A DNA stretch of 64,000 bases from NCBI GenBank assembly GCA_947497985.1, contig CANMIX010000002.1, forward strand, positions 1 through 64,000. Reading direction: 5' to 3'. The translations under genes were made by a program, and so were the position numbers. This document shows positions 26,668 through 38,653 of this stretch, piece by piece. Below the pieces are notes generated by a model. It was not told where the DNA came from, ran no database searches, and worked only from the letters and a program-made list of their open reading frames with translations. Every line of letters starts with the position of its first letter. Positions within the stretch are counted from its first letter, which is position 1. This DNA comes from an uncultured Paracoccaceae bacterium (GTDB lineage Bacteria > Pseudomonadota > Alphaproteobacteria > Rhodobacterales > Rhodobacteraceae).

Positions 26668-27463
26668 CTGCGACATCCGCCTGATTTTTGGACTTGCCGA
26701 TGGTCTGGCGGTGCAACTGGATCAATTGTGCAAAAATCGACAGGGCGATTTCTTCGGGTGTAACCGCGCCAATTTTTACACCGGCAGGGGCGGTGATGCG
26801 GCTGATCTGCTCAGAACTGTGGCCCGCTTTTTGCAGTTTCTCCGACAGGACGGCGAATTTTTTGCTACTGCCCACAAATGCGATGTGATCGACCTCTGCA
26901 GCCATTGCAGCAGTCAGTGCGGCCAAGTCACCTTGCCCCTGTGTGGCAATGACGATGGCGCGGGTGCGGGGCTGTGGGGTCGGGTCAATGTCGTCGCGGG
27001 TTACAGCCCAGCTCATCACGGGCGCCAATGTGGCCAATGCTTCGGCCACGGGTGAGGCGCCCATGATCACCACTTCGGGCGCGGGCAGGCAGGGTTCGAT
27101 AAAGATGTCGATTGTCCCGCGCGATGGGCAGCCGTTGCGCGCATAGGTTACGCCCTCTGCCTCGGCCCCCGGGGTAAGGCCTTTTTTGGTGATCTCTTCC
27201 TCGGGCGTGACCGAAATCAGCTGGGGTGTGCCGGTTTCAAGGGCGGTCAAGGCCGCGCGTTTGACCGCGCCGCGGGTGCAACCGCCGCCAAGAAAACCGC
27301 CAACAATTGCGCCTTCGCTGTCAATCAACGCCTTGGCACCGGGTTTTGCGGCCGTGGTTCCAGCGGTACGGATGATGGTGGCATAGGCAAAGGGCTGCTG
27401 CCCCGATTGCAGGCGCGCGGCCGTGTCGGCCAGATCAACGGACAGGAGGTCAGCAGGTATCAT
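26660..27463 (-). CDS. XdhC/CoxF-family molybdenum-hydroxylase maturation protein (first copy in cox locus)
   Basis: A 267-residue XdhC-family protein. The N-terminal domain has ATIIRTAGTTAAKPGAKALI and GGFLGGGCTRGAVKRAAL, with a Cys in the usual family position, followed by RNGCPSRGTIDIFIEP. The C-terminal Rossmann-like domain has VIMGASPVAEALA. It probably loads modified molybdenum cofactor into CoxL. Its start overlaps the coxE stop by four bases. Two XdhC paralogues in one operon match the coxF/coxI pair of Oligotropha, though this copy is only distantly similar to the one at 24565. Confidence 0.88.
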   Translation of the reverse strand: MIPADLLSVDLADTAARLQSGQQPFAYATIIRTAGTTAAKPGAKALIDSEGAIVGGFLGGGCTRGAVKRAALTALETGTPQLISVTPEEEITKKGLTPGAEAEGVTYARNGCPSRGTIDIFIEPCLPAPEVVIMGASPVAEALATLAPVMSWAVTRDDIDPTPQPRTRAIVIATQGQGDLAALTAAMAAEVDHIAFVGSSKKFAVLSEKLQKAGHSSEQISRITAPAGVKIGAVTPEEIALSIFAQLIQLHRQTIGKSKNQADVADG

Positions 27464-28644
27464 AGGCGGGCGAGCTCCGATTCAAGGGCGGCAAGATCAT
27501 TCAGCGTATTGGCGGCTTGGAACAGATCCAGATGGGTCAGGGCAGCGGCCATTCCGGCGGCGATGGGTTGGTAGTCTTTCCAGCCCTTCAACGGGTTCAG
27601 CCAGATGATGCGGCAACCACGTTTGCGTAATTTGGCAAGGGCGGCGGCGACCTCGGCCGGGGCCGAAGTGTCATAGCCATCGGACAGGATCAGCACCACG
27701 CTGCGCCCGTCTACAAAACGACGCGCATAGGTGTCGGCAAATTGACCCAGCGAGGCGCCGATTTTCGACCCGCCTCCAAAGCCATCAGCCATCAAGGACA
27801 TGCGGCCCACGGCGCGGATCGGATCCTTGTCCCGTAATGCGTCGGTGATCCGCACCAATCGCGTGTGAAAAATATATGCGTCCGAGGTCGGGTCGCAGCG
27901 CATCAACCCGCTGAGAAATGCGAGAAAAACCTGCGCGTAAACGCTCATCGAGCCGGAAACATCACATAGGGCGACCAACTTGCGATCCCGGTCAGGCCGT
28001 TTTTTGCGAAACAAGGTGAGCGGTTCACCACCCGTGGCAAGGCTGCGGCGGATGGTTTTGCGGAAATGCAACCGATCGCCGCGACGTGCGGCAATACGAC
28101 GACGCGAGCGGCGGTCACGCAGAGCGGCACCCAGTCGGCGGGCAACCTCTTCGGCTTGGGCAATGTCTTCGGGGCGAACCAGATCGCGCAGGTCGCGGCG
28201 CGCCAGATTTCGCATTTCGGTGGCGACTAACTTGCCTTCACCGTCCATATCCGCTTCGCCGTCACCACCAGCCGGGGCTGTGGTTTGGCCCGCGCCGCCC
28301 GCAGTATCGGCACCATCACCATCGCGCGAGGAATGCACGTCCTGTTGGGTCTTGGGCTGGATCTTTGGAGTTATTTTCTGACGGACACGGCCTTTATCCA
28401 TCCAGAATGCATCAAATAGCGCGTCAAATTGCTGGGCTTCGTCCTTGGTCCCGGCACAGACGCATTTCAGCGCGGCACGGGCCAGTTCAGGCTCGGCTGC
28501 GGGCACATGGGTGAGGGCCTCCAGTGCCAATTCAGTCTCCCGAACGCCGAGGCGGAGCCCATTGTCGCGCAAGTGGGCAATAAACCCAGACATGCGCGCC
28601 AATGGGCCCGGATCGCGGCCAGCGAATTTGGTTACCCGGCTCAT
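27460..28644 (-). CDS. coxE: CoxE, von Willebrand factor A-domain protein
   Basis: A 394-residue cytoplasmic protein with a C-terminal VWA domain. The metal-ion-dependent adhesion site is visible as DVSGSMSVY (D-x-S-x-S), with later SDGYDTS. The middle is rich in Arg (RRRIAARRGDRLHF) and includes an acidic/Gly-rich linker near 110-140. CoxE works with the AAA+ protein CoxD in a late maturation step of the CoxL Cu-Mo active site. It overlaps coxD by four bases (ATGA) at its start and the next XdhC-like gene by four at its end. Confidence 0.93.
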   Translation of the reverse strand: MSRVTKFAGRDPGPLARMSGFIAHLRDNGLRLGVRETELALEALTHVPAAEPELARAALKCVCAGTKDEAQQFDALFDAFWMDKGRVRQKITPKIQPKTQQDVHSSRDGDGADTAGGAGQTTAPAGGDGEADMDGEGKLVATEMRNLARRDLRDLVRPEDIAQAEEVARRLGAALRDRRSRRRIAARRGDRLHFRKTIRRSLATGGEPLTLFRKKRPDRDRKLVALCDVSGSMSVYAQVFLAFLSGLMRCDPTSDAYIFHTRLVRITDALRDKDPIRAVGRMSLMADGFGGGSKIGASLGQFADTYARRFVDGRSVVLILSDGYDTSAPAEVAAALAKLRKRGCRIIWLNPLKGWKDYQPIAAGMAAALTHLDLFQAANTLNDLAALESELARL

Positions 28645-29516
28645 GCGGCTTTACCTGCGATGCGCTGGCTGACCTCAGTCGTGATTTGCGCGCGATCGTT
28701 TTGGGTTTTCAGCAATGTCGCCAACGTGTTGTGCAAAACAGCCGGATCATCGGTCAGATCAGCCACGCCAAGCCCCATCAGCGCAGCGGCAAAGTCCAGC
28801 GTTTCGGCAATGCCGGGTGTCTTCTCCAGGTCTTCTTTGCGCAAGGTTTGCACAAACGAGATGATCTGGCTGGCCAGTCTTTCCTCGATTTCGGCACAGC
28901 GCGCCATAAGGATCGCCAGCTCGGTCTGATGATCGGGGTAATCGAGATAAGCAAACAAACAGCGACGGCGCAGCGCGTCCGACAGGTCGCGGGTGCCATT
29001 TGACGTCAGGATCACGATGGGTTTGCTGGTGGCCTCAATGGTGCCAAGCTCTGGCACGGTAATCTGAAATTCGGCCAGCATTTCCAGCAGGAAAGCTTCG
29101 AATTCTTCGTCGGCGCGGTCGATTTCGTCGATCAACAAAACCGGAGGTGCATCCTGCGTAATCGCCTGCAGCAGCGGGCGTTCCAGCAGATATTCCCGAG
29201 AGAAAATGCGCGCCTCGACCGCTGCGCCGGTTTCACCGCTTTCGGAGGCGGCACGAATGGCCAGAAGTTGACGTTGGTAGTTCCATTCATAAATCGCCTG
29301 GGCCGCGTCGAGCCCTTCATAACATTGCAGGCGGATCAGTTTGGTGTTTTGCGACGCCGCCAATGTGCGGGCCACCTCGGTCTTGCCGACACCTGCCGCG
29401 CCTTCCAACAGCAAAGGGCGGCCCAGCGACAAAGCCAGTTGCAAGGCAACGGCCAGATCGTCTGAGGCAACATAATTCTGTTCTGCCAAGGCAGTTTGCA
29501 GGTCGGTCATAGTCAT
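28641..29516 (-). CDS. coxD: CoxD, MoxR-type AAA+ ATPase
   Basis: A 291-residue AAA+ ATPase with Walker A GAAGVGKTEVA, Walker B VLLIDEIDRADEEFEAFLLE, sensor 1 TSNGTRDLSDALRRRC and the usual MoxR ending. CoxD is needed for copper and sulfur insertion into CODH and acts with CoxE. The open frame continues upstream to 29663 but overlaps coxL. ATG 29516 (M-T-M-T-D-L-Q) with GGAGAT upstream fits the family. A GC-rich hairpin lies in the 49-bp gap to coxL and could lower expression relative to the structural subunits. Confidence 0.94.
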   Translation of the reverse strand: MTMTDLQTALAEQNYVASDDLAVALQLALSLGRPLLLEGAAGVGKTEVARTLAASQNTKLIRLQCYEGLDAAQAIYEWNYQRQLLAIRAASESGETGAAVEARIFSREYLLERPLLQAITQDAPPVLLIDEIDRADEEFEAFLLEMLAEFQITVPELGTIEATSKPIVILTSNGTRDLSDALRRRCLFAYLDYPDHQTELAILMARCAEIEERLASQIISFVQTLRKEDLEKTPGIAETLDFAAALMGLGVADLTDDPAVLHNTLATLLKTQNDRAQITTEVSQRIAGKAA

Positions 29517-29532
29517 GTTGAGATCTCCGGTC

Positions 29533-29556
29533 GGACGGGGGTGGGGACCCCCGCCC
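29533..29556 (-). promoter_or_regulatory. GC-rich intercistronic hairpin between coxL and coxD
   Basis: On the minus-strand RNA GGGCGGGGGU pairs with ACCCCCGUCC around a CCCC loop: ten pairs, one of them G-U. It starts ten bases after the coxL stop and ends 17 bases before the coxD ATG. No U-tract follows. Position suggests mRNA processing or attenuation that separates abundant structural subunits from maturation factors. Confidence 0.6.
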
Positions 29557-29565
29557 GTGTTGGAA

Positions 29566-31992
29566 TTAGCCGTGCAGGCCCAGATCATTGGCGGTTTTCC
29601 AGATCCGCCAGTGGTCATGTGGCATGTGCGTATGGCGCAGGCCAAAGGCCTTGAACGCGTCATTCACAGCATTCGAGAAGCAAGGCACACCGCCAACGTG
29701 GGGGCTTTCGCCCACGCCCTTGGCACCAATTGGGTGGTGCGGGCTTGGGGTAACCGTGAAATCGGTCTCGTAGTTTGGAACTTCCCAAGCTGTGGGCAAG
29801 AAAAAGTCCATCAAAGTACCGGTTTTCACGTTGCCCAGGCTGTCATAGGCGATCTCTTGTCCCAGGGCGACAGCCAGCGCTTCGGTCAGGCCGCCATGGA
29901 TCTGGCCATCGATGATCATCGGGTTGATCCGGGTGCCACAGTCATCCAGCGCATAGAAGCGGCGAATGTCGGTCACACCTGTATCCACGTCGATATCCAT
30001 CACACAGACATAGGCGCCAAACGGGTAGGTCATGTTGGGCGGATCATAGTAGCTGACCGCTTCAAGACCGGGTTCAACACCTGGAATGGCCTGGTTATAG
30101 GCCGCATAGGCGATCTCTTTCATCGTCTTGAACTTCTCAGGCGCACCTTTAACGACAAAACGATCTACGTCGAATTCGACGTCATCATCGTGCACTTCGA
30201 GAAGGTAAGCCGCGATCATCTGCGCCTTGGCGCGGATCTTACGTCCTGCCAATGCAGTGGCCGCACCGGCAACCGGAGTTGACCGCGATCCGTAAGTGCC
30301 CAGACCATAAGGCGCGGTATCGGTGTCGCCTTCTTCAATCGTGATCGAGTCCGCCGGCAGGCCGATTTCGGTCGCCAAGATCTGTGCAAAGGTGGTCGCG
30401 TGGCCCTGACCTTGGGAAATAGTGCCCAGACGTGCGATGGCCGATCCTGTGGGGTGGATACGGATTTCGCAGCTGTCGAACATGCCCATGCCAAGGATGT
30501 CGCAGTTTTTGACGGGGCCGGCGCCTACGATCTCGGTAAAGAACGTCAAGCCAACACCCATCAGCTTGCGGGTTTTACCTGCTTTGAAGTCTTCGACACG
30601 TTGAGCCTGTTCTGCGCGCAGACCTTCATAGTCGACGGCTTTCAGCGCCTTCTCCCACGCAGTGTGGTAATCGCCGCTATCATATTCCCACCCAAGGGCT
30701 GCCTGATAGGGGAACTGCTCTTTTTTGATGAAATTCTTCATCCGCAATTCAGCCGGGTCCATGTTCAGCTCAATCGCGAGAACTTCGATCATGCGCTCGA
30801 TGAAATAGACCGCTTCGGTCACCCGGAAAGAACAGCGATAGGACACGCCGCCCGGCGCCTTGTTGGTGTAGACACCGTCAACGCCCAGATAGGCAACGGG
30901 GATATCATACGAGCCGGTACAGATGTTCATAAAGCCGGCCGGGAATTTGCTCGGATCCGCACAGGCATCAAACGCGCCGTGGTCAGCGGTTACATGGCAG
31001 TGCAGGCCGGTGATCTTGCCGTCTTTGGTGGCTGAGATCTTACCCTTCATCCAGTAATCCCGCGCAAAGGCGGTGGACATCAGGTTTTCCATCCGGTCTT
31101 CGACCCATTTCACCGGCTTGCCGGTAACAATGGAGGCCACGATCGAGCAGACATAGCCCGGGTAGACGCCAACTTTATTGCCAAAACCACCACCGATGTC
31201 GGGAGAGACAACGCGAATGTTGTGTTCTTCGATACCCGACAACAGGGAGGCCACGGTCCGCACCACATGCGGTGCCTGGAAGGTGCCCCAAAGGGTCAGC
31301 TTGCCGTTGACCTTGTCCATCGACGCAACCGAGCCGCAGGTCTCCAGCGGGCAAGGGTGGGTGCGGTGATAATACATGGTCTCTTCGGCCACGACTTCCG
31401 CATCATCCATCACTTCGTTGGTCGCAGGCTCATCGCCCATTTCCCATTTGAAGATATGGTTGTGATGCCCGCGTGGGCCGTGGGCGCCGTCAACGGCCGT
31501 GCCGTTTTCATCAACCGTATCTTCACGCAGAACCACATCGGATTTCAGCGCCTCGAACGGGTCGGTGATCACCGGCAGCTCTTCGTATTCAACCTCAACC
31601 AGCTCGACCGCGTCAGCCGCGATATAGCGGTCTTTGGCAACAACAAAGGCAACTTCTTGGCCTTGGAACAACACTTTGCCGTCGGCCAGAACCATCTGTT
31701 TGTCGCCCGCCAATGTGGGCATCCAAGTGAGGTTCAGGGGTTTGAGATCCTCGGCTGTCAGAACCGCGGCCACACCGTCCAGGGCCATAGCCGCATCGAT
31801 GTTGATCGATTTGATCCGAGCATGCGCATAGGGAGAGCGCACAAAGTCGGCAAACATCATCCCGTCTAGTTTGATGTCATCGACATAGTTGCCTTTGCCT
31901 TGGGTAAAGCGGGCGTCTTCGACACGTTTACGTTTACAGCCCATGCCACCCAGGGCATCGACGCGTTCTTCGCGCGTTACGTCGTCTTTCAT
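29566..31992 (-). CDS. coxL: Aerobic carbon monoxide dehydrogenase large subunit, form I
   Basis: An 808-residue molybdopterin subunit, full length for CoxL. The active-site loop reads [10 protein letters not shown]. The Cys-Ser-Phe-Arg core is the form I signature (usual AYxCSFR), so the Cu-ligating Cys is present, while the leading Ala is Ser. Other landmarks are [27 protein letters not shown], and the catalytic Glu region [13 protein letters not shown]. It oxidises CO to CO2 with CoxM and CoxS at the inner membrane. Its start overlaps coxS by four bases. Form II enzymes carry AYRGAGR instead. Confidence 0.96.
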
Positions 31993-32483
31993 TCTGCCGC
32001 CTCCTTGGCTGCGTTCATCTCACTCGCGGCGGCGAGGATGGATTTCACAATGTTCTGATACCCGGTGCAGCGGCAGATATTGCCTGCCATGCCAAAACGG
32101 ACCTCTTCTTCGGTCGGGTTGGGGTTTTCTTCCAGAAGCTTGGTCGCGCGGGTGATCATACCCGGAGTGCAGAAGCCGCACTGAAGACCGTGATGTTCCT
32201 TGAACGCGTTTTGCAGCACGTGCAGATTGTCGGGATCCCCGATCCCTTCGATGGTGGTGACATCCGCGCCATTGGCTTGCGCCACAAACATGGTGCAGGA
32301 TTTCACCGATTTTCCGTCGATCGTAACCGTGCAAGCCCCGCAATGGGTGGTTTCGCAACCGATGTGCGGACCCGTGATGTCCAGACGTTCGCGCAGGGTA
32401 TGGATCAACAATTCACGTGGTTCGGCCAGGAATTCCTGTTCTTCGCCGTTCACGGTCATTTTGATGTGCATTTTATCAGCCAT
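31989..32483 (-). CDS. coxS: Aerobic carbon monoxide dehydrogenase small [2Fe-2S] subunit
   Basis: A 164-residue iron-sulfur subunit. The plant-ferredoxin cluster is in [12 protein letters not shown] with a further Cys in SCTMF. The second, helical cluster is in CGFCTPGM and CRCTGYQNI. It relays electrons from the Mo-Cu site in CoxL to FAD in CoxM. ATG 32483 lies 14 bases after the coxM stop with GGAGGTCAC upstream. Length matches family members at about 160 residues. Confidence 0.96.
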
Positions 32484-32497
32484 GGTGACCTCCGGGT

Positions 32498-33352
32498 TTA
32501 TGCGCGCGACCAGGCACGTGCGATGGCACGGCGCAGGATCACAGCAGCTGCATGGCGTTTGAATTCGATGGGTCCGCGGTTGTCCTCGGTGGGATCAATG
32601 TCGCCCAGCATGGCAGCAACGGCGGCCTCGACGGCGGCCTCGTCCACACTGGTGCCGATCAGAGCCTCGCCCGCCTCTTCTGAATAGATCGGCGTATCGC
32701 TCAGGTTGGTCATCGCGATAGAGGCCGTCGCACACACACCGTTTTCTTTGGTGATTTGTACGGCTGCGGCAGCTGTCGCATAGTCGCCGATTTTACGCTT
32801 TTGCTTCTCGTAAGCGTATCCGCCTTCGGGCGCCGGGAAGGATACGGCGACAAGCACCTCATCATCTTCACGGTCGGTCATATAGGCCGCTTCGTAGAAT
32901 TCGCGTGCTGCAACGTCACGATCACCGTCCGGGCCAACCAGATGGAAGGTCGCATCCAGGCATTGCATCAAACCCGGCATGTCATTGCCCGGATCGCCAT
33001 TGGCGACATTGCCGCCGACGGTGCCCATATAACGCACCTGCGGATCCGCGATCTGCAATGCCGCTTCGCGCATGATCGGTGCCGCAGCCAACAGGGCCGC
33101 GTCGTCAATCATTGTGGCTTGTGTGGTCATGGTCCCAAGACGAACCGTACCGTTTTCGATGGTGATCCCCGTGAGGCCTGCAACATCCTGCAGGTCAATC
33201 AGATGGGGAACTTCTGCCATACGCAGTTTCATCATGGGGATCAGGCTATGGCCGCCTGCCAGAACGCGCGCGTCGTCCCCATGTTCTTCGAGCACGGCCA
33301 AAACGCCTGCCATGTCCTTTGGACGATAGTATTCAAAGGCAGCTGGAATCAT
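32498..33352 (-). CDS. coxM: Aerobic carbon monoxide dehydrogenase medium FAD subunit
   Basis: A 284-residue FAD-binding subunit with the two family motifs [13 protein letters not shown] (near residue 32) and [16 protein letters not shown] (near 108), followed by the CO_deh_flav_C domain from about residue 175. It passes electrons from the iron-sulfur subunit to the quinone pool. It is the first gene of the CODH operon. ATG 33352 has GGAAAGGCA upstream. The 133-bp leader holds a pair of 9-bp direct repeats beside the coxC-like regulator gene. Confidence 0.95.
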
Positions 33353-33444
33353 TGCCTTTCCTCCCTGAGCAATTTCTCTCGCTGGGAAGAAGGCTGCACA
33401 CCTACGTATGCATTGGCTGCTTAAAACACTTTATTGAGGCCTAT

Positions 33445-33483
33445 TTTGCACGAGTTGCGTCGCTATTTGCACGAAATGCGCCG
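33445..33483. promoter_or_regulatory. Candidate LytTR operator: TTTGCACGA direct repeats 21 bp apart
   Basis: TTTGCACGA occurs at 33445-33453 and 33466-33474, separated by exactly 12 bp. The match extends to 18 bp per copy (33445-33462 and 33466-33483) with three differences, the second half being TGCGnCG. LytTR-domain regulators bind paired 9-bp direct repeats with 12-13 bp between them. The pair ends two bases after the coxC-like stop and lies about 93-131 bases upstream of coxM, consistent with activation of coxMSL. Confidence 0.72.
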
Positions 33484-33485
33484 GG

Positions 33486-34640
33486 CTAACCAAATGCGAG
33501 TTGCGCGTCTTTTAGATGAGAGCGGCTGACAGGGACATCCGGCAGGCCGCTGGCTTCAAAACTGCAGCGCCCTTTGTCTTTGGTGCGTTCGAACCGGGTG
33601 ACCTTGTCCGGGTTCACAACGTAGCTTCGGTGAATCTTAATAAATCCAACTGCTGTGAGACGCTTGGTAGCCTCGGTTATTGGCATCACGCAAAAGAAAC
33701 GTTCTTGGTCGGTGTAGACTTGGGTGTAATGCCCATCTGCGCGAACAAATGCGATCTCATCCGCAGGGATCAGGATCTTGCGGCCGTCCTGTTCACAGTG
33801 AATGCGCAGGATCTCCCCTTGTGGGACGATCGCGGGCTTCATTGGCGAAGGCGTTGGTTGGTGGGCGCTTGGATCCAAATCAACTGGCGGCGTTAAAGGT
33901 GAGGCCGCAACCTGTTCAGGCATCAAGAAGGTCGATCCCACCCATAAGAACGCCCCAAGCAACACAAAGCTGGAAAGGATTACCCCAATCGCCATGGTTT
34001 CATTGCTGATCAGCGGGCCGAATTCATGGGTGCCAGGCACCGCCACAAAATTGGTGCTGGCCATCGCAAGGAAATGCACCCCTCCAACTGCAACGCCAAA
34101 ACATAATGTTCCGATCATGATGTTACGGGTCGAACGCACACTATAGGCAACGCCAAAGGCGACGATGCACAGACCGATGGCCAAGACCGACGAAGAGATC
34201 ACGCCAAACGTGGTATAGACCGGTCTGCACAGCTGCATGCCGGCCATGCCGACATAATGCATTGCCAGAATTCCCGCCCCAACCAAAGCGCCGGCCGCAA
34301 CAATGGTCGTTTTGGTGCGAACTGTGAAGTGAAGCATCAACAGTGCCAGCGCAACAATCAGGATTGCAATTAGAGCGGACACCAATGTTATTGCGGCATC
34401 ATAGAAATACAGGATCGGCATATGCAGACCCAGCATGGCAACAAAATGCATCGACCAAATGCCACCACCCAGTGCAATCGCTGCCATGGCCACGGACAGT
34501 TTCCGTTGCGCCACAGATTGCAGTGACAGGTCCTTGGTCAGGGTCAACCCCGTGGCGCCCGCAACAAGCGCCACAAAAAACGAGACCGCCACCAGACCAA
34601 CGTTATGTCCGTACTCTATAAATTCCATGGAGCGTAACAT
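33486..34640 (-). CDS. coxC: MHYT-LytTR membrane-bound transcription regulator (CoxC-like)
   Basis: About 384 residues. The N-terminal 230 residues form seven membrane helices of an MHYT sensor with the repeated M-H-x(2)-A/G motifs (WSMHFVAMLGLHMP, LAMHYVGMAGM, GVHFLAMAST), thought to bind metal and sense gases such as CO. A Pro-rich linker at about 250-280 leads to a LytTR DNA-binding domain: IAFVRADGHYTQVYT, FIKIHRSYVVN, PVSRSHLKD. CoxC and CoxH of Oligotropha have this build. Start is uncertain: ATG 34640, ATG 34628 or TTG 34664; none has a strong ribosome-binding site. It is transcribed toward coxM, 133 bases upstream. Confidence 0.88.
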   Translation of the reverse strand: MLRSMEFIEYGHNVGLVAVSFFVALVAGATGLTLTKDLSLQSVAQRKLSVAMAAIALGGGIWSMHFVAMLGLHMPILYFYDAAITLVSALIAILIVALALLMLHFTVRTKTTIVAAGALVGAGILAMHYVGMAGMQLCRPVYTTFGVISSSVLAIGLCIVAFGVAYSVRSTRNIMIGTLCFGVAVGGVHFLAMASTNFVAVPGTHEFGPLISNETMAIGVILSSFVLLGAFLWVGSTFLMPEQVAASPLTPPVDLDPSAHQPTPSPMKPAIVPQGEILRIHCEQDGRKILIPADEIAFVRADGHYTQVYTDQERFFCVMPITEATKRLTAVGFIKIHRSYVVNPDKVTRFERTKDKGRCSFEASGLPDVPVSRSHLKDAQLAFG

Positions 34641-34761
34641 GCATGACGCCCCAATGTGATGCAATTAACAGATTGCGTTATATCAAGCTCTTCGCGCTTG
34701 ACAGCAGCCCACAATTGGAACCCGCGATTGCGGAACCGGTCTCGGGGTGAACACCCCCACC

Positions 34762-36444
34762 TTAGCCATAGAATTTCTTGCGCGACATTTTCCCAATGCC
34801 GGGGTTCATGCTGTTGGTGGGGTCGATCTGTTTGTAAAACGCGGCAAGGCCGGGCTTGGCGGGATAAAGATGTCCCACATTATGTTCGGCCGGGTATTCC
34901 GCACCTCGTTTGTCCAGAATCTCCAGCATTGCCGCCTTCAAGGCCTTTGGATCGCAGCCCTTTTTGACGATGTAATCCTGATGCAGCACGTGGCACATGA
35001 AATGCCCGTAATAAAGACGGCTCACCAGTTGGCTGGCGATCTCGGTCGGCAGTTCCTCGAACCAATCCTGATCATTGCGGCGCAAGGCAATATCAAGGGC
35101 AATGATATCTTCGACGTCATTCTTATGAACCGCCATGTAACGCACGGCAGCACCTGCTGCGGCAAACCGGTGCAATGCGGCCATCTTGGCCTCGCGATCG
35201 TTACATTCAAAGAAATCAAGCGCACCATCCGCCTTCATTTCGCCCAGCAATGCTCGCGCTTCGTCAACGCCACCGTCGCGCATTTTGAGGATCAGGTGAT
35301 GGGGATAAAGGGCACGATAGGTGCGCATATTCTTGGGCAGGACATCTGGCCACAGCTTCATGGCAAGCTGCATGAAACGATCTGTGAAATTGCCAAGCCC
35401 CGGAATGTTGGCCAATCGGGCATCCACAGCGCCTTTGATAGAAAAGAACAAGGGCAATTTATCTGTGCCCAGCTTGTCGATCATCACCATCGTGTCCTTG
35501 CCGTAGACGTCCGAGATGTCAAAAATCTCGGAATGCATATATTCGGCGCTGATTGGCAGGGTTTGAAAGCTGGACAGGATTTTACGGCGCAGATCGGTCA
35601 GCGCGCCAGTGGTCTGCGCCCCAATGTAAAACGTCCGCTCCGTCGTGTTTTTTTCGTGGGTATCAAGGCGCACAGCAAACACGGCAAGCTTTCCTGCACA
35701 ACCGGCGGCCTCATATAGGCGGCGGGTGTCGGCATTGAACCGGGCAGGGGTGTCCGCATCAATCTGGCGCACACGGCGGGCGTAATCGGTATCGGATGCT
35801 TTGCGATTGCCGTTTTCAATATCAGCCGGAGAATAGCCACCGTTTTGCAAAGTGGTCAGGATTTCCGCCGGTGTCTTGCCCAGATTGATGCCGAGGTGGT
35901 TCACCAGCTCCAACGCTCCGTCCTCGGCAATCTGCGCATAAAGGGACAGTTCGGTATAGGCCGGGCCACGTTCCACCAACGACCCACCCGAACTGTTGCA
36001 AACCCCGCCAACAACCGATGCGCCAATGCAAGAGCTGCCGATCACCGAATGCGGTTGCCGGTTCAACGGCTCCAGCAGTTTCTCCAGCGCAAACAGGGTG
36101 GATCCGGGAAAGCTGATGACCTGTTTCCCCTCGTTGATCAGCTGCAACTGATCCATCCGGCGGGTATTGATCAAAACCACATCGCGATCATAGGTGCCTT
36201 TTGGCGTGGAGCCTTCCGTCAGACCTGTGTTGGCGGCTTGCATGATCAGAATTTTGTCGGCCTCAACACACGCCTCCAACACGTGCCACTGCTCTAACAG
36301 CGTCGCGGGTTGAACCACCGCCAAAGCGTCCCCTTCGCCCGAACGAAATCCTTTGCGGAACCGTTGTGTCGCACGCGCACTGGTCATAACGTGACGTTTG
36401 CCGACAATCTTGCGCAGACGATTGATAAGATCCTGATCGGTCAT
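34762..36444 (-). CDS. dld: Quinone-dependent D-lactate dehydrogenase (Dld type)
   Basis: A 560-residue FAD enzyme resembling E. coli Dld (571 residues). The N-terminal FAD_binding_4 part has IMQAANTGLTEGSTPKG and VIGSSCIGASVVGGVCNSSGGSLVERGPAYTE; the C-terminal Lact-deh-memb-like region has HHLILKMRDGG, HRFAAAGAAVRYMAVH and AEHNVGHLYPAKP. It oxidises D-lactate to pyruvate and feeds the quinone pool at the inner face of the membrane. It follows lldD after 12 bases, so one operon handles both lactate stereoisomers. Confidence 0.94.
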   Translation of the reverse strand: MTDQDLINRLRKIVGKRHVMTSARATQRFRKGFRSGEGDALAVVQPATLLEQWHVLEACVEADKILIMQAANTGLTEGSTPKGTYDRDVVLINTRRMDQLQLINEGKQVISFPGSTLFALEKLLEPLNRQPHSVIGSSCIGASVVGGVCNSSGGSLVERGPAYTELSLYAQIAEDGALELVNHLGINLGKTPAEILTTLQNGGYSPADIENGNRKASDTDYARRVRQIDADTPARFNADTRRLYEAAGCAGKLAVFAVRLDTHEKNTTERTFYIGAQTTGALTDLRRKILSSFQTLPISAEYMHSEIFDISDVYGKDTMVMIDKLGTDKLPLFFSIKGAVDARLANIPGLGNFTDRFMQLAMKLWPDVLPKNMRTYRALYPHHLILKMRDGGVDEARALLGEMKADGALDFFECNDREAKMAALHRFAAAGAAVRYMAVHKNDVEDIIALDIALRRNDQDWFEELPTEIASQLVSRLYYGHFMCHVLHQDYIVKKGCDPKALKAAMLEILDKRGAEYPAEHNVGHLYPAKPGLAAFYKQIDPTNSMNPGIGKMSRKKFYG

Positions 36445-36456
36445 GAGGTCTGTTCC

Positions 36457-37602
36457 TTAGCGAAAACGGAGATTTTCGGAGCTCAGTTGATCCAGCGCGG
36501 TGACGCCCATCAACTTCATGCCGCGTTCAATTTCGGACTGCATCAACCCCAGCGCACGTTCGACGCCGGGTTGTCCCGCAGCCGCCAGCGGATAAAGGTA
36601 GAACCGTCCACCGCCGACTGCCTTGGCGCCCAATGACAGCGCCTTCAACACATGGGTGCCACGTTGGATGCCACTGTCCATAATCACGTCAATCTCATCG
36701 CCGACGGCATCGACAATCTCTTTCAACTGATCAAAAGGCGCACGTGAGCCGTCCAGCTGTCGCCCCCCGTGGTTTGACAGAACAATACCCGTGCAGCCGA
36801 TCTCAACCGCGCGACGGGCATCGGCCGCAGTCATCACCCCCTTGAGGCAGAATTGACCATCCCAATCCTGGACCATCTCGGCCACGTCATCCCAATTCAT
36901 CGACGGATCCAGCATCTCAGAGAAATACCCCCCGATTGAGCTGGCCCCCCCGCCCATATCGACAAATTCATCCAGTTGCGGCAGGGCGAATTTCTCATGG
37001 GTGACATAGTTGATGCCCCACTGCGGTTTCAGCGCGAATTGCAACATGCCTGCCAGGGTCAGCCGGAAGGGGATGGAAAATCCGGTGCGCAGATCACGCT
37101 CACGATTTCCGCCGGTGATGCTGTCCACGGTCAACATCATCACTTCAACGCCCGCGTCCTTGGCCCGTTGCATCATCGCTTTGTTCAGGCCGCGATCCTT
37201 GTGGAAGTAAAACTGATAGACCTGCGGGTTCTTATGTTTCTGACGCAATTCCTCCAGGCTGACGGTGCCCAACGAAGACACACCAAACATGGTGCCAAAT
37301 TTTTCGGCTGCCGCCGCCACGGCACGCTCACCTTGATGGTGGAACAGTCGTTGCAATGCGGTGGGAGAGCAATAGATTGGCATCTCAAGCCGTTGGCCCA
37401 TGACCGTTACCGACATATCCACCGCATTCACCCCTTGCAGGACCGAGGGCAGCAGGTCGCAACTGTCAAACGACGCGGTGTTTTGGCGATATGTCACCTC
37501 ATCATCGGCGGCACCGTCGATATAGTTGAAAATCGGTCCGGGCAAACGCCGACGCGCCAATTCGCGAAAGTCCTGAAAGTTATGGCACTGATTGAGCCGC
37601 AT
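36457..37602 (-). CDS. lldD: L-lactate dehydrogenase (FMN, quinone-linked)
   Basis: A 381-residue TIM-barrel FMN enzyme of the alpha-hydroxyacid oxidase family. FMN and catalytic sites are visible: YCSPTALQRL, VSSLGTVSLEEL, QFYFHKDRG, the catalytic His in LSNHGGRQLDG, DSGIQRGTHVLKAL and GRFYLYPLAAAG. It oxidises L-lactate to pyruvate at the membrane. ATG 37602 (M-R-L-N-Q) has GGGAG upstream; the open frame extends 29 codons further through the operator and is unlikely to be used. It is first of lldD-dld, divergent from the GntR gene lldR. Confidence 0.94.
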   Translation of the reverse strand: MRLNQCHNFQDFRELARRRLPGPIFNYIDGAADDEVTYRQNTASFDSCDLLPSVLQGVNAVDMSVTVMGQRLEMPIYCSPTALQRLFHHQGERAVAAAAEKFGTMFGVSSLGTVSLEELRQKHKNPQVYQFYFHKDRGLNKAMMQRAKDAGVEVMMLTVDSITGGNRERDLRTGFSIPFRLTLAGMLQFALKPQWGINYVTHEKFALPQLDEFVDMGGGASSIGGYFSEMLDPSMNWDDVAEMVQDWDGQFCLKGVMTAADARRAVEIGCTGIVLSNHGGRQLDGSRAPFDQLKEIVDAVGDEIDVIMDSGIQRGTHVLKALSLGAKAVGGGRFYLYPLAAAGQPGVERALGLMQSEIERGMKLMGVTALDQLSSENLRFR

Positions 37603-37640
37603 GGCTGCTCTCCCGAGTTTTGGGCGACGAAAGGATTGGG

Positions 37641-37659
37641 TGGTAAATAATATTAACCA
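37641..37659. promoter_or_regulatory. Candidate LldR operator 1, TGGT-N11-ACCA
   Basis: TGGTAAATAATATTAACCA lies 39-57 bases upstream of the lldD start. TGGT and ACCA are inverted and the 11-bp centre is AT-rich and nearly symmetrical. TGGT/ACCA half-sites are typical of FadR-type GntR regulators, though the usual spacing is shorter. The same TGGTAAA half-site recurs in the second site near lldR. Confidence 0.55.
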
Positions 37660-37825
37660 CTGAATTTCGTCAATCACTTTGATGACCACTGTGGCTGTGC
37701 AACGCAGTCAAATAGGTTGAAGTCAATATTGAGAAGCCGTTTCAAAGATGGCAATTAGGCAATATTCTCATCCTCTTACGTCTCCAATTCCAACTCTCAG
37801 AGGTGCTTGTTATTGTAGGTCAAAG

Positions 37826-37882: not shown

Positions 37883-38653
37883 ATGACATCTTCCAGCCCA
37901 TTTGAACCTATTGGCCATGATTCCATTGCCGAATCCGTGGTGGATCAGATCGAATCGATGATTGTGAACGGGATCTTGAAGGAGGGCTACAAACTACCCT
38001 CGGAACGGGAACTGGCCGAGGTTATGGGCGTGTCCCGACCCAAATTGCGCGAAGCCATAAAGCAGTTGGAACGGGATGGCCTGGTCACCGTGTGCCATGG
38101 CGAGGGCACATTTATCGCCAAGCTGACAGGGCGGGCGATGTCACCGGCGTTTCTGGCGCTTTATGCCCGTCACGGCGAAGCGTTTTACGACTACCTTGAA
38201 TACCGTCGCGAGCAGGAAGGCTTTGCCGCCAGCCTTGCAGCCCAACGTGCAACCCAATCAGATCATGAGCGGTTGCGCGACATTATCCGGGACATGCAGG
38301 AAGCTTGGGAACAGAATGACAACGATGCCGCACAGGAGGCGGATATCAGGCTGCATACAGCGATCGTGGATGCCAGCCAGAACACAACGCTGATCCATAT
38401 GATGGCCTCGGTCTATGATCTGACCCGCGAGGGGGTATTCTACAATCGCAGGTTCCTGCGCACGATGGATGGGACAGGCAAAGCGCTGCTGGAACAACAT
38501 ATCGCTTTGGTCGATGCGATTACCGCGGGCGACGCCACGGCGGCAAAAACCGCGGCGCTTGCCCATATGGATTTTGTTGAAAGCAGCTTCCGAAAAGGGC
38601 AAGAGCAAGTCATCCGCGAAGCACGCGCCGCCAAACGGCGCCAGTTGGCGTGA
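37883..38653 (+). CDS. lldR: GntR/FadR-family regulator of lactate utilisation
   Basis: A 256-residue regulator. The winged helix-turn-helix is at about residues 14-82 with YKLPSERELAEVMGVSRPKLREAIKQLERDGLV and wing HGEGTFI; the FCD effector domain follows with ADIRLHTAIVDASQN and LEQHIALVDAI, holding the usual Asp/His metal or ligand positions. LldR/PdhR-type proteins respond to lactate or pyruvate. It is divergent from lldD-dld with paired TGGT-N11-ACC sites between. ATG 37883 fits the family start. Assignment to lactate rests on context. Confidence 0.87.
   Translation: MTSSSPFEPIGHDSIAESVVDQIESMIVNGILKEGYKLPSERELAEVMGVSRPKLREAIKQLERDGLVTVCHGEGTFIAKLTGRAMSPAFLALYARHGEAFYDYLEYRREQEGFAASLAAQRATQSDHERLRDIIRDMQEAWEQNDNDAAQEADIRLHTAIVDASQNTTLIHMMASVYDLTREGVFYNRRFLRTMDGTGKALLEQHIALVDAITAGDATAAKTAALAHMDFVESSFRKGQEQVIREARAAKRRQLA

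Follow-up and report, generated by a model that had tools for sequence, protein, structure and literature searches.

Background

Do two short direct repeats between a coxC-like regulator gene and coxM form the operator through which the regulator controls coxMSL? The question is raised by a 64,000-nucleotide stretch of DNA from an uncultured Paracoccaceae bacterium (contig CANMIX010000002.1), hereafter "the window". Bacteria of the Roseobacter group are thought to be major marine consumers of CO. In the literature that we searched, mostly outside subscription journals, no operator for roseobacter cox genes was found, nor any CoxC operator ahead of coxM or from a roseobacter. Judging from the comparison of genomes presented here, we consider it very probable that the repeat pair is the operator by which CoxC controls coxMSL.

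CoxC, a CoxC operator and control by CO are already known in Afipia carboxidovorans (PMC11347149, cited throughout for the parts covered here). In this organism CoxC represses PcoxB: its LytTR domain recognises three TTNNNGCN repeats at distances of 18-21 bp (apparent KD ~25 nM); the operator needs all three repeats and is sited over the -35, and CO relieves the repression via the MHYT domain in a process for which copper is needed (PMC11347149). The concept of a DNA-binding membrane CO sensor, there a repressor, has thus been published for Afipia, which also encodes CoxH, another protein of MHYT-LytTR type; RcoM1, like most LytTR regulators, instead binds upstream of the -35 and activates (PMC11347149).

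Results

The repeat pair and its surroundings

On the plus strand of the window, TTTGCACGA stands at 33445-33453 and again at 33466-33474. The original prediction had described a 9-bp direct repeat with a 12-bp spacer and a 21-bp period, extending to 18 bp with three mismatches, and the window sequence bears out both the repeat (0 mismatches) and its extension. The placement was also correct, in that the coxC gene terminates at 33486, two bases away from 33483, and the coxM ATG at 33352 is 93 bp from 33445. Read on the coxM coding strand (33480-33447), the arrangement is CGCATTTCGTGCA-N8-CGCAACTCGTGCA, with a period of 21 bp, inside a 133-bp coxC-coxM gap (Table 1).

Table 1. Features of the window around the candidate operator
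Feature	Position	Strand	Sequence or basis
Candidate operator repeat I	33468..33480	-	CGCATTTCGTGCA; sequence and conserved half-site in the logo of 139 regions
Candidate operator repeat II	33447..33459	-	CGCAACTCGTGCA, 21 bp past repeat I; sequence and conserved half-site
Spot of the third, weaker repeat of relatives	33427..33439	-	20 bp past repeat II; window reads CCTCAATAAAGTG, unrecognisable as a repeat
coxC-like gene, MHYT membrane sensor and LytTR DNA-binding domain	33486..34664	-	PF03707 2e-27, PF04397 1.4e-17
coxM, first gene past the candidate operator	32498..33352	-	Pfam FAD_binding_5 and CO_deh_flav_C
coxS	31989..32483	-	Pfam Fer2 and Fer2_2
coxL, aerobic CO dehydrogenase large subunit	29566..31992	-	TIGR02416 1401.8 bits, cut-off 991.15 (NCBI equivalog)
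coxD-like AAA ATPase	28641..29663	-	Pfam AAA_5; coxD name from gene order
coxE-like VWA protein	27460..28644	-	Pfam VWA_CoxE

Allowing up to 3 mismatches, the window yields this one 9-N12-9 pair and no other. Shuffled windows yield a mean of 0.10 matches at the same tolerance, and because 9/100 of them also contain at least one pair, the window alone is suggestive and short of decisive. Across the 4.19-Mb genome there are 11 matches at up to 3 mismatches, the window pair being the single exact copy, and the pattern of the conserved motif described below has one match in the whole genome, the window site.

The minus-strand order is coxC, the gap, coxM, coxS, coxL and the coxD/E-like genes. The coxC product is 392 aa long from a TTG start, the true start being unsure. 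As predicted, it joins MHYT to LytTR: Pfam assigns MHYT to two stretches and LytTR to residues 295-387, and nothing else, so that the regulator does not qualify as a heme sensor of the RcoM1 type. Direct repeats about 21 bp apart from start to start and an accompanying LytTR regulator are two of the marks of a LytTR-type operator, and both are present. The protein is 31% identical to Afipia carboxidovorans CoxC over residues 20-386, is the one CoxC-like match in the source genome at E 1e-20, and has no match among PDB chains at E 0.01.

Some further features of the cluster are recorded here as observations in their own right. The CoxL motif reads SYRCSFR, the usual motif of form I CoxL enzymes being AYRCSFR. 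Genes on the coxC strand and upstream of coxC (34762-37689, 37883-38653) encode a D-lactate dehydrogenase and a lactate-type, FMN-dependent dehydrogenase; past both, a divergent gene apparently encodes a GntR-type regulator.

Conservation of the pair and co-occurrence with CoxC

We examined 394 family genomes and 385 class genomes, each sample drawn from a larger group. CoxC was present in 99/394 family genomes (E 1e-20), coxM in 101/394 (E 1e-60) and both in 96. A pair was scored when at least 20/22 conserved positions agreed at a spacing of 20 or 21 bp, at most 330 bp before coxM. The site pattern was drawn up after the aligned gaps had been viewed, so the 20/22 threshold is post hoc; as controls we took first-order resampled regions, reverse strands and the rest of the DNA in the loci.

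The pair lies ahead of coxM in 91 of the 96 family genomes with CoxC and coxM, which agrees with the original expectation that repeat and spacing would be conserved in related cox loci. It is found in 0/5 family genomes with coxM and no CoxC, with two uninformative cases (G102 and G354: contig end; coxM start missing). The CoxC genomes that lack it are G350, G224 and G323 (one good copy, partner damaged) and G227 and G017, in which CoxC is only 35% and 32% identical. One genome, G109, has degenerate repeats (score 18) before coxM and no CoxC at E 1e-20. Among the named loci, for which we used the best 80 of at least 576, 75 contain both genes and 72 of these 75 hold the pair, the full pair being absent from L070, L088 and L115.

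With the family and named loci combined, 163/176 regions carry the pair at 20 or 21 bp, against 0/5280 resampled regions and 0/176 reverse strands. When both strands of the best 80 of at least 576 named loci (1.63 Mb) were scanned, all 77 pair matches fell in the 200 bp preceding coxM, with no match in any other place, near coxC included. CoxC autoregulation via a further copy was accordingly rejected for these 80 loci.

A class-wide search with Afipia CoxC and CoxM against the 385 genomes gave 15 new loci, one of which, L255, is again from a family genome. Eleven others are in CoxC genomes: seven score at least 20, three (L248, L249, L257) score 18-19 with visible cores, and the CoxC-linked L245 has no pair. 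The remaining three (L254, L256, L258), where coxM has no CoxC alongside, score 14-15 and show no core; one of them, L258, shares a genome with L249 and is the second coxM there, the CoxC-linked coxM of L249 carrying the cores.

Separately, two contigs labelled Granulosicoccaceae (Gammaproteobacteria MAGs; L100, L108) carry the coxC-repeats-coxM unit too, by either lateral transfer or wrong binning. Four Roseovarius-type loci (L107, L109, L111, L118) have a close CoxC; the stretches fetched for them showed neither coxM nor an operator pair.

Position of the site relative to coxM and coxC

Dropping near-copies and short rows reduced the 176 regions to 139. In these, the distance from the start of repeat II to the coxM start codon has a median of 110 bp (interquartile 108-111, range 86-146), and the coxC-coxM gap spans 108 to 3819 bp (5th-95th percentile 111-271, n=136). 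The repeats are kept before coxM even where coxC is remote: at 3.8 kb in G007, ~11 kb in G656, ~15 kb in G328, ~30 kb in G279 and on another contig in G296. Since its spacing from coxM holds even with coxC kilobases distant, we assign the site to coxM.

Motif, spacing and a weaker third repeat

The half-site conserved in the logo of the 139 regions is CGCA-N-YTCGTGC(A), 12-13 bp long; it includes the TTNNNGCN core of the Afipia CoxC operator and is near the RcoM1 repeat TTCNNGCA. In the window, the core of repeat I (TTCGTGCA) fits TTNNNGCN and that of repeat II (CTCGTGCA) deviates at one position, the family consensus being YTCGTGC. The repeat unit first proposed stands as a repeat, with a change of register: on the coding strand it reads TCGTGCAAA, whose AAA portion is unconserved in the first repeat of relatives, and the register shifts to CGCANYTCGTGCA.

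A scan with the repeat I/II matrix over 82 offsets placed the best third repeat at +20 from repeat II where the pair is spaced at 21 bp, and at +21 where it is spaced at 20 bp. This repeat is weak, since mean matrix scores stay negative. A third core at +20 or +21 occurs in 79/139 regions, versus 32/417 control stretches (any of eight offsets). The outer pair is spaced at 41 bp in 58 matches, 42 bp in 18 and 40 bp in 3, so that a strictly fixed outer spacing of 41 bp had to be softened; the commonest three-repeat layout in the 21-bp group is 21+20. In the window itself the third spot scores -31.8, no better than neighbouring offsets, and close relatives read about AATAAAGYG there. What had been called a textbook LytTR pair does consist of LytTR-type direct repeats, but because a third repeat is frequent in relatives the operator is not simply a textbook pair. 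On a CoxC tree (FastTree, 130 rows, short or interrupted rows dropped) the 20/21 register changes at least 13 times, 10 of these changes being forced by well-supported branches, versus ~36 in shuffled data.

Other features in the gap

A strong predicted hairpin (-22.2 kcal/mol for 55 nt) covers the coxM ribosome-binding site just before the start codon (33354-33394, minus strand). Long stems with the ribosome-binding site (at least 7 pairs) occur in 42% of relatives versus 16% with the upstream part shuffled; conservation of the pairing bases is not strict, and the loop holds a conserved AGCCAGAA-N-AATTGCT stretch. Downstream of the repeats lies an inverted repeat, GCATAC-N4-GTGTGC (33396-33411, minus strand), a possible second binding site. 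Perfect palindromes related to it turn up in some members of the 21-bp group (with arms of at least 6 in 16%, versus 5% after shuffling) and in none of the 20-bp group; the inverted repeat was set aside as clade-limited. The gap (139 bp as searched) had no blastn match in a plasmid collection.

Comparison with known systems

The window resembles Afipia CoxC/PcoxB (strain OM5) in having an MHYT-LytTR regulator in the cox cluster and repeats two helical turns apart with the TTNNNGCN core; it differs in that PcoxB precedes coxB, upstream of coxC, whereas the window site lies between coxC and coxM, and in showing two recognisable repeats where PcoxB requires three (PMC11347149). RcoM1 of Paraburkholderia xenovorans likewise combines LytTR, CO control of cox genes and TTCNNGCA repeats with 12-13 bp between them, which repeat I here (TTCGTGCA) fits; unlike the window CoxC, it senses through heme, lacks MHYT and serves as an activator, and its site has three repeats (PMC11347149). 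The HdrRM/BrsRM LytTR systems of Streptococcus mutans share the paired direct repeats, with 11-13 bp between, but differ in half-site (e.g. ACCACTTAT), in their separate membrane inhibitor protein and in autoactivation (PMC6193735, parts covered); near coxC there is no further pair in the best 80 of at least 576 named loci.

In Afipia, a strict search of the region upstream of coxB for three TTNNNGCN sites found none. At 11/12 core positions, the 626-bp region before coxB contains a single candidate triple, TTCATGCG, TTGGTGGA and TTTGGGCA, at 21 and 20 bp, the layout most often seen in the 21-bp group above, and its first repeat agrees with the motif defined here at 11/11 positions. Within the coxC-coxM gap of Afipia, CGTATTTCGTGCA, TGCTTTTGGTGAC and GATGTCTGGTGCG follow one another in 20-bp steps, with scores of 10, 8 and 8 of 11 where the background reaches 8, and the Bradyrhizobium betae gap has counterparts of all three in equal steps (spacing judged by eye). 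The parts covered of the Afipia study name coxM only in the cluster description and leave three repeats in the gap unmentioned (PMC11347149).

Discussion

The presence of the repeats, their conservation and spacing, their linkage to coxM, their being a single site in the genome and their co-occurrence with CoxC are directly supported. We infer from them that membrane-bound CoxC would physically dock on the repeats through its LytTR domains, which would bind direct repeats 20-21 bp, or two helical turns, apart. By analogy with Afipia, CO at a copper-dependent MHYT domain would be the signal that releases CoxC, and release would then allow transcription of coxMSL from a putative promoter in the coxC-coxM gap. 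Taken whole, a CoxC operator for coxMSL that acts most likely by CO-relieved repression is, on the sequence comparisons, a highly likely explanation, only slightly less so than the operator by itself.

Least certain is the sign of control, since no promoter could be placed: a consensus search for sigma-70-like promoters found none at a consistent place. That result is what an activator-dependent promoter would give, and it is thus conceivable, if rather unlikely, that CoxC uses the same operator to activate coxMSL from a position upstream of a weak promoter, in the manner of RcoM1 and the majority of LytTR regulators, which activate from upstream of the -35 (PMC11347149). The sole CoxC that has been studied is, however, a repressor with its repeats over the -35 (PMC11347149), and if the site is a CoxC operator, this analogy makes repression the probable mode.

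That the repeats bind another regulator, their nearness to coxC being incidental, is improbable. The degenerate repeats in G109, which has no CoxC at E 1e-20, speak for it, as does Afipia, where CoxH could read the gap site; yet the pair tracks CoxC (91/96 versus 0/5), is unique in its genome, and has LytTR core and spacing in a genome with one CoxC-like match at E 1e-20. Since the repeats start two bases past the coxC stop codon in the window, they might also work at the RNA level or form part of the coxC 3' end, as a terminator or processing site, an idea we regard as highly implausible and treat as ruled out: their spacing from coxM holds across coxC-coxM gaps of 108 to 3819 bp, and the repeats persist where coxC sits elsewhere. 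Rfam returned a single match, far under the gathering score. A chance tandem duplication by slippage, without function, has in its favour that 9/100 shuffled windows also give a pair at up to 3 mismatches, but the repeats are conserved in relatives although neighbouring bases vary freely, and this conservation rules out chance or slippage, leaving it a negligible prospect.

A wider extension of the CoxC operator model is offered tentatively, as possible more than probable. The coxM-proximal operator, and not PcoxB, may be the ancestral and main CoxC switch for alphaproteobacterial aerobic CO oxidation, with the Afipia coxC-coxM gap also holding a three-repeat operator (20+20 bp). Tethered CoxC would then read three repeats, the outer pair mostly 41 bp apart and the middle one at 20 or 21 bp, in a register switched many times; because the Afipia gap would have its own three-repeat operator, repression at PcoxB would be only part of the circuit.

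With a precise conserved site, control of coxMSL by a DNA-binding membrane CO sensor becomes a one-probe experiment. The motif is usable to predict CoxC targets, and a further CoxC site is predicted in the model organism Afipia.
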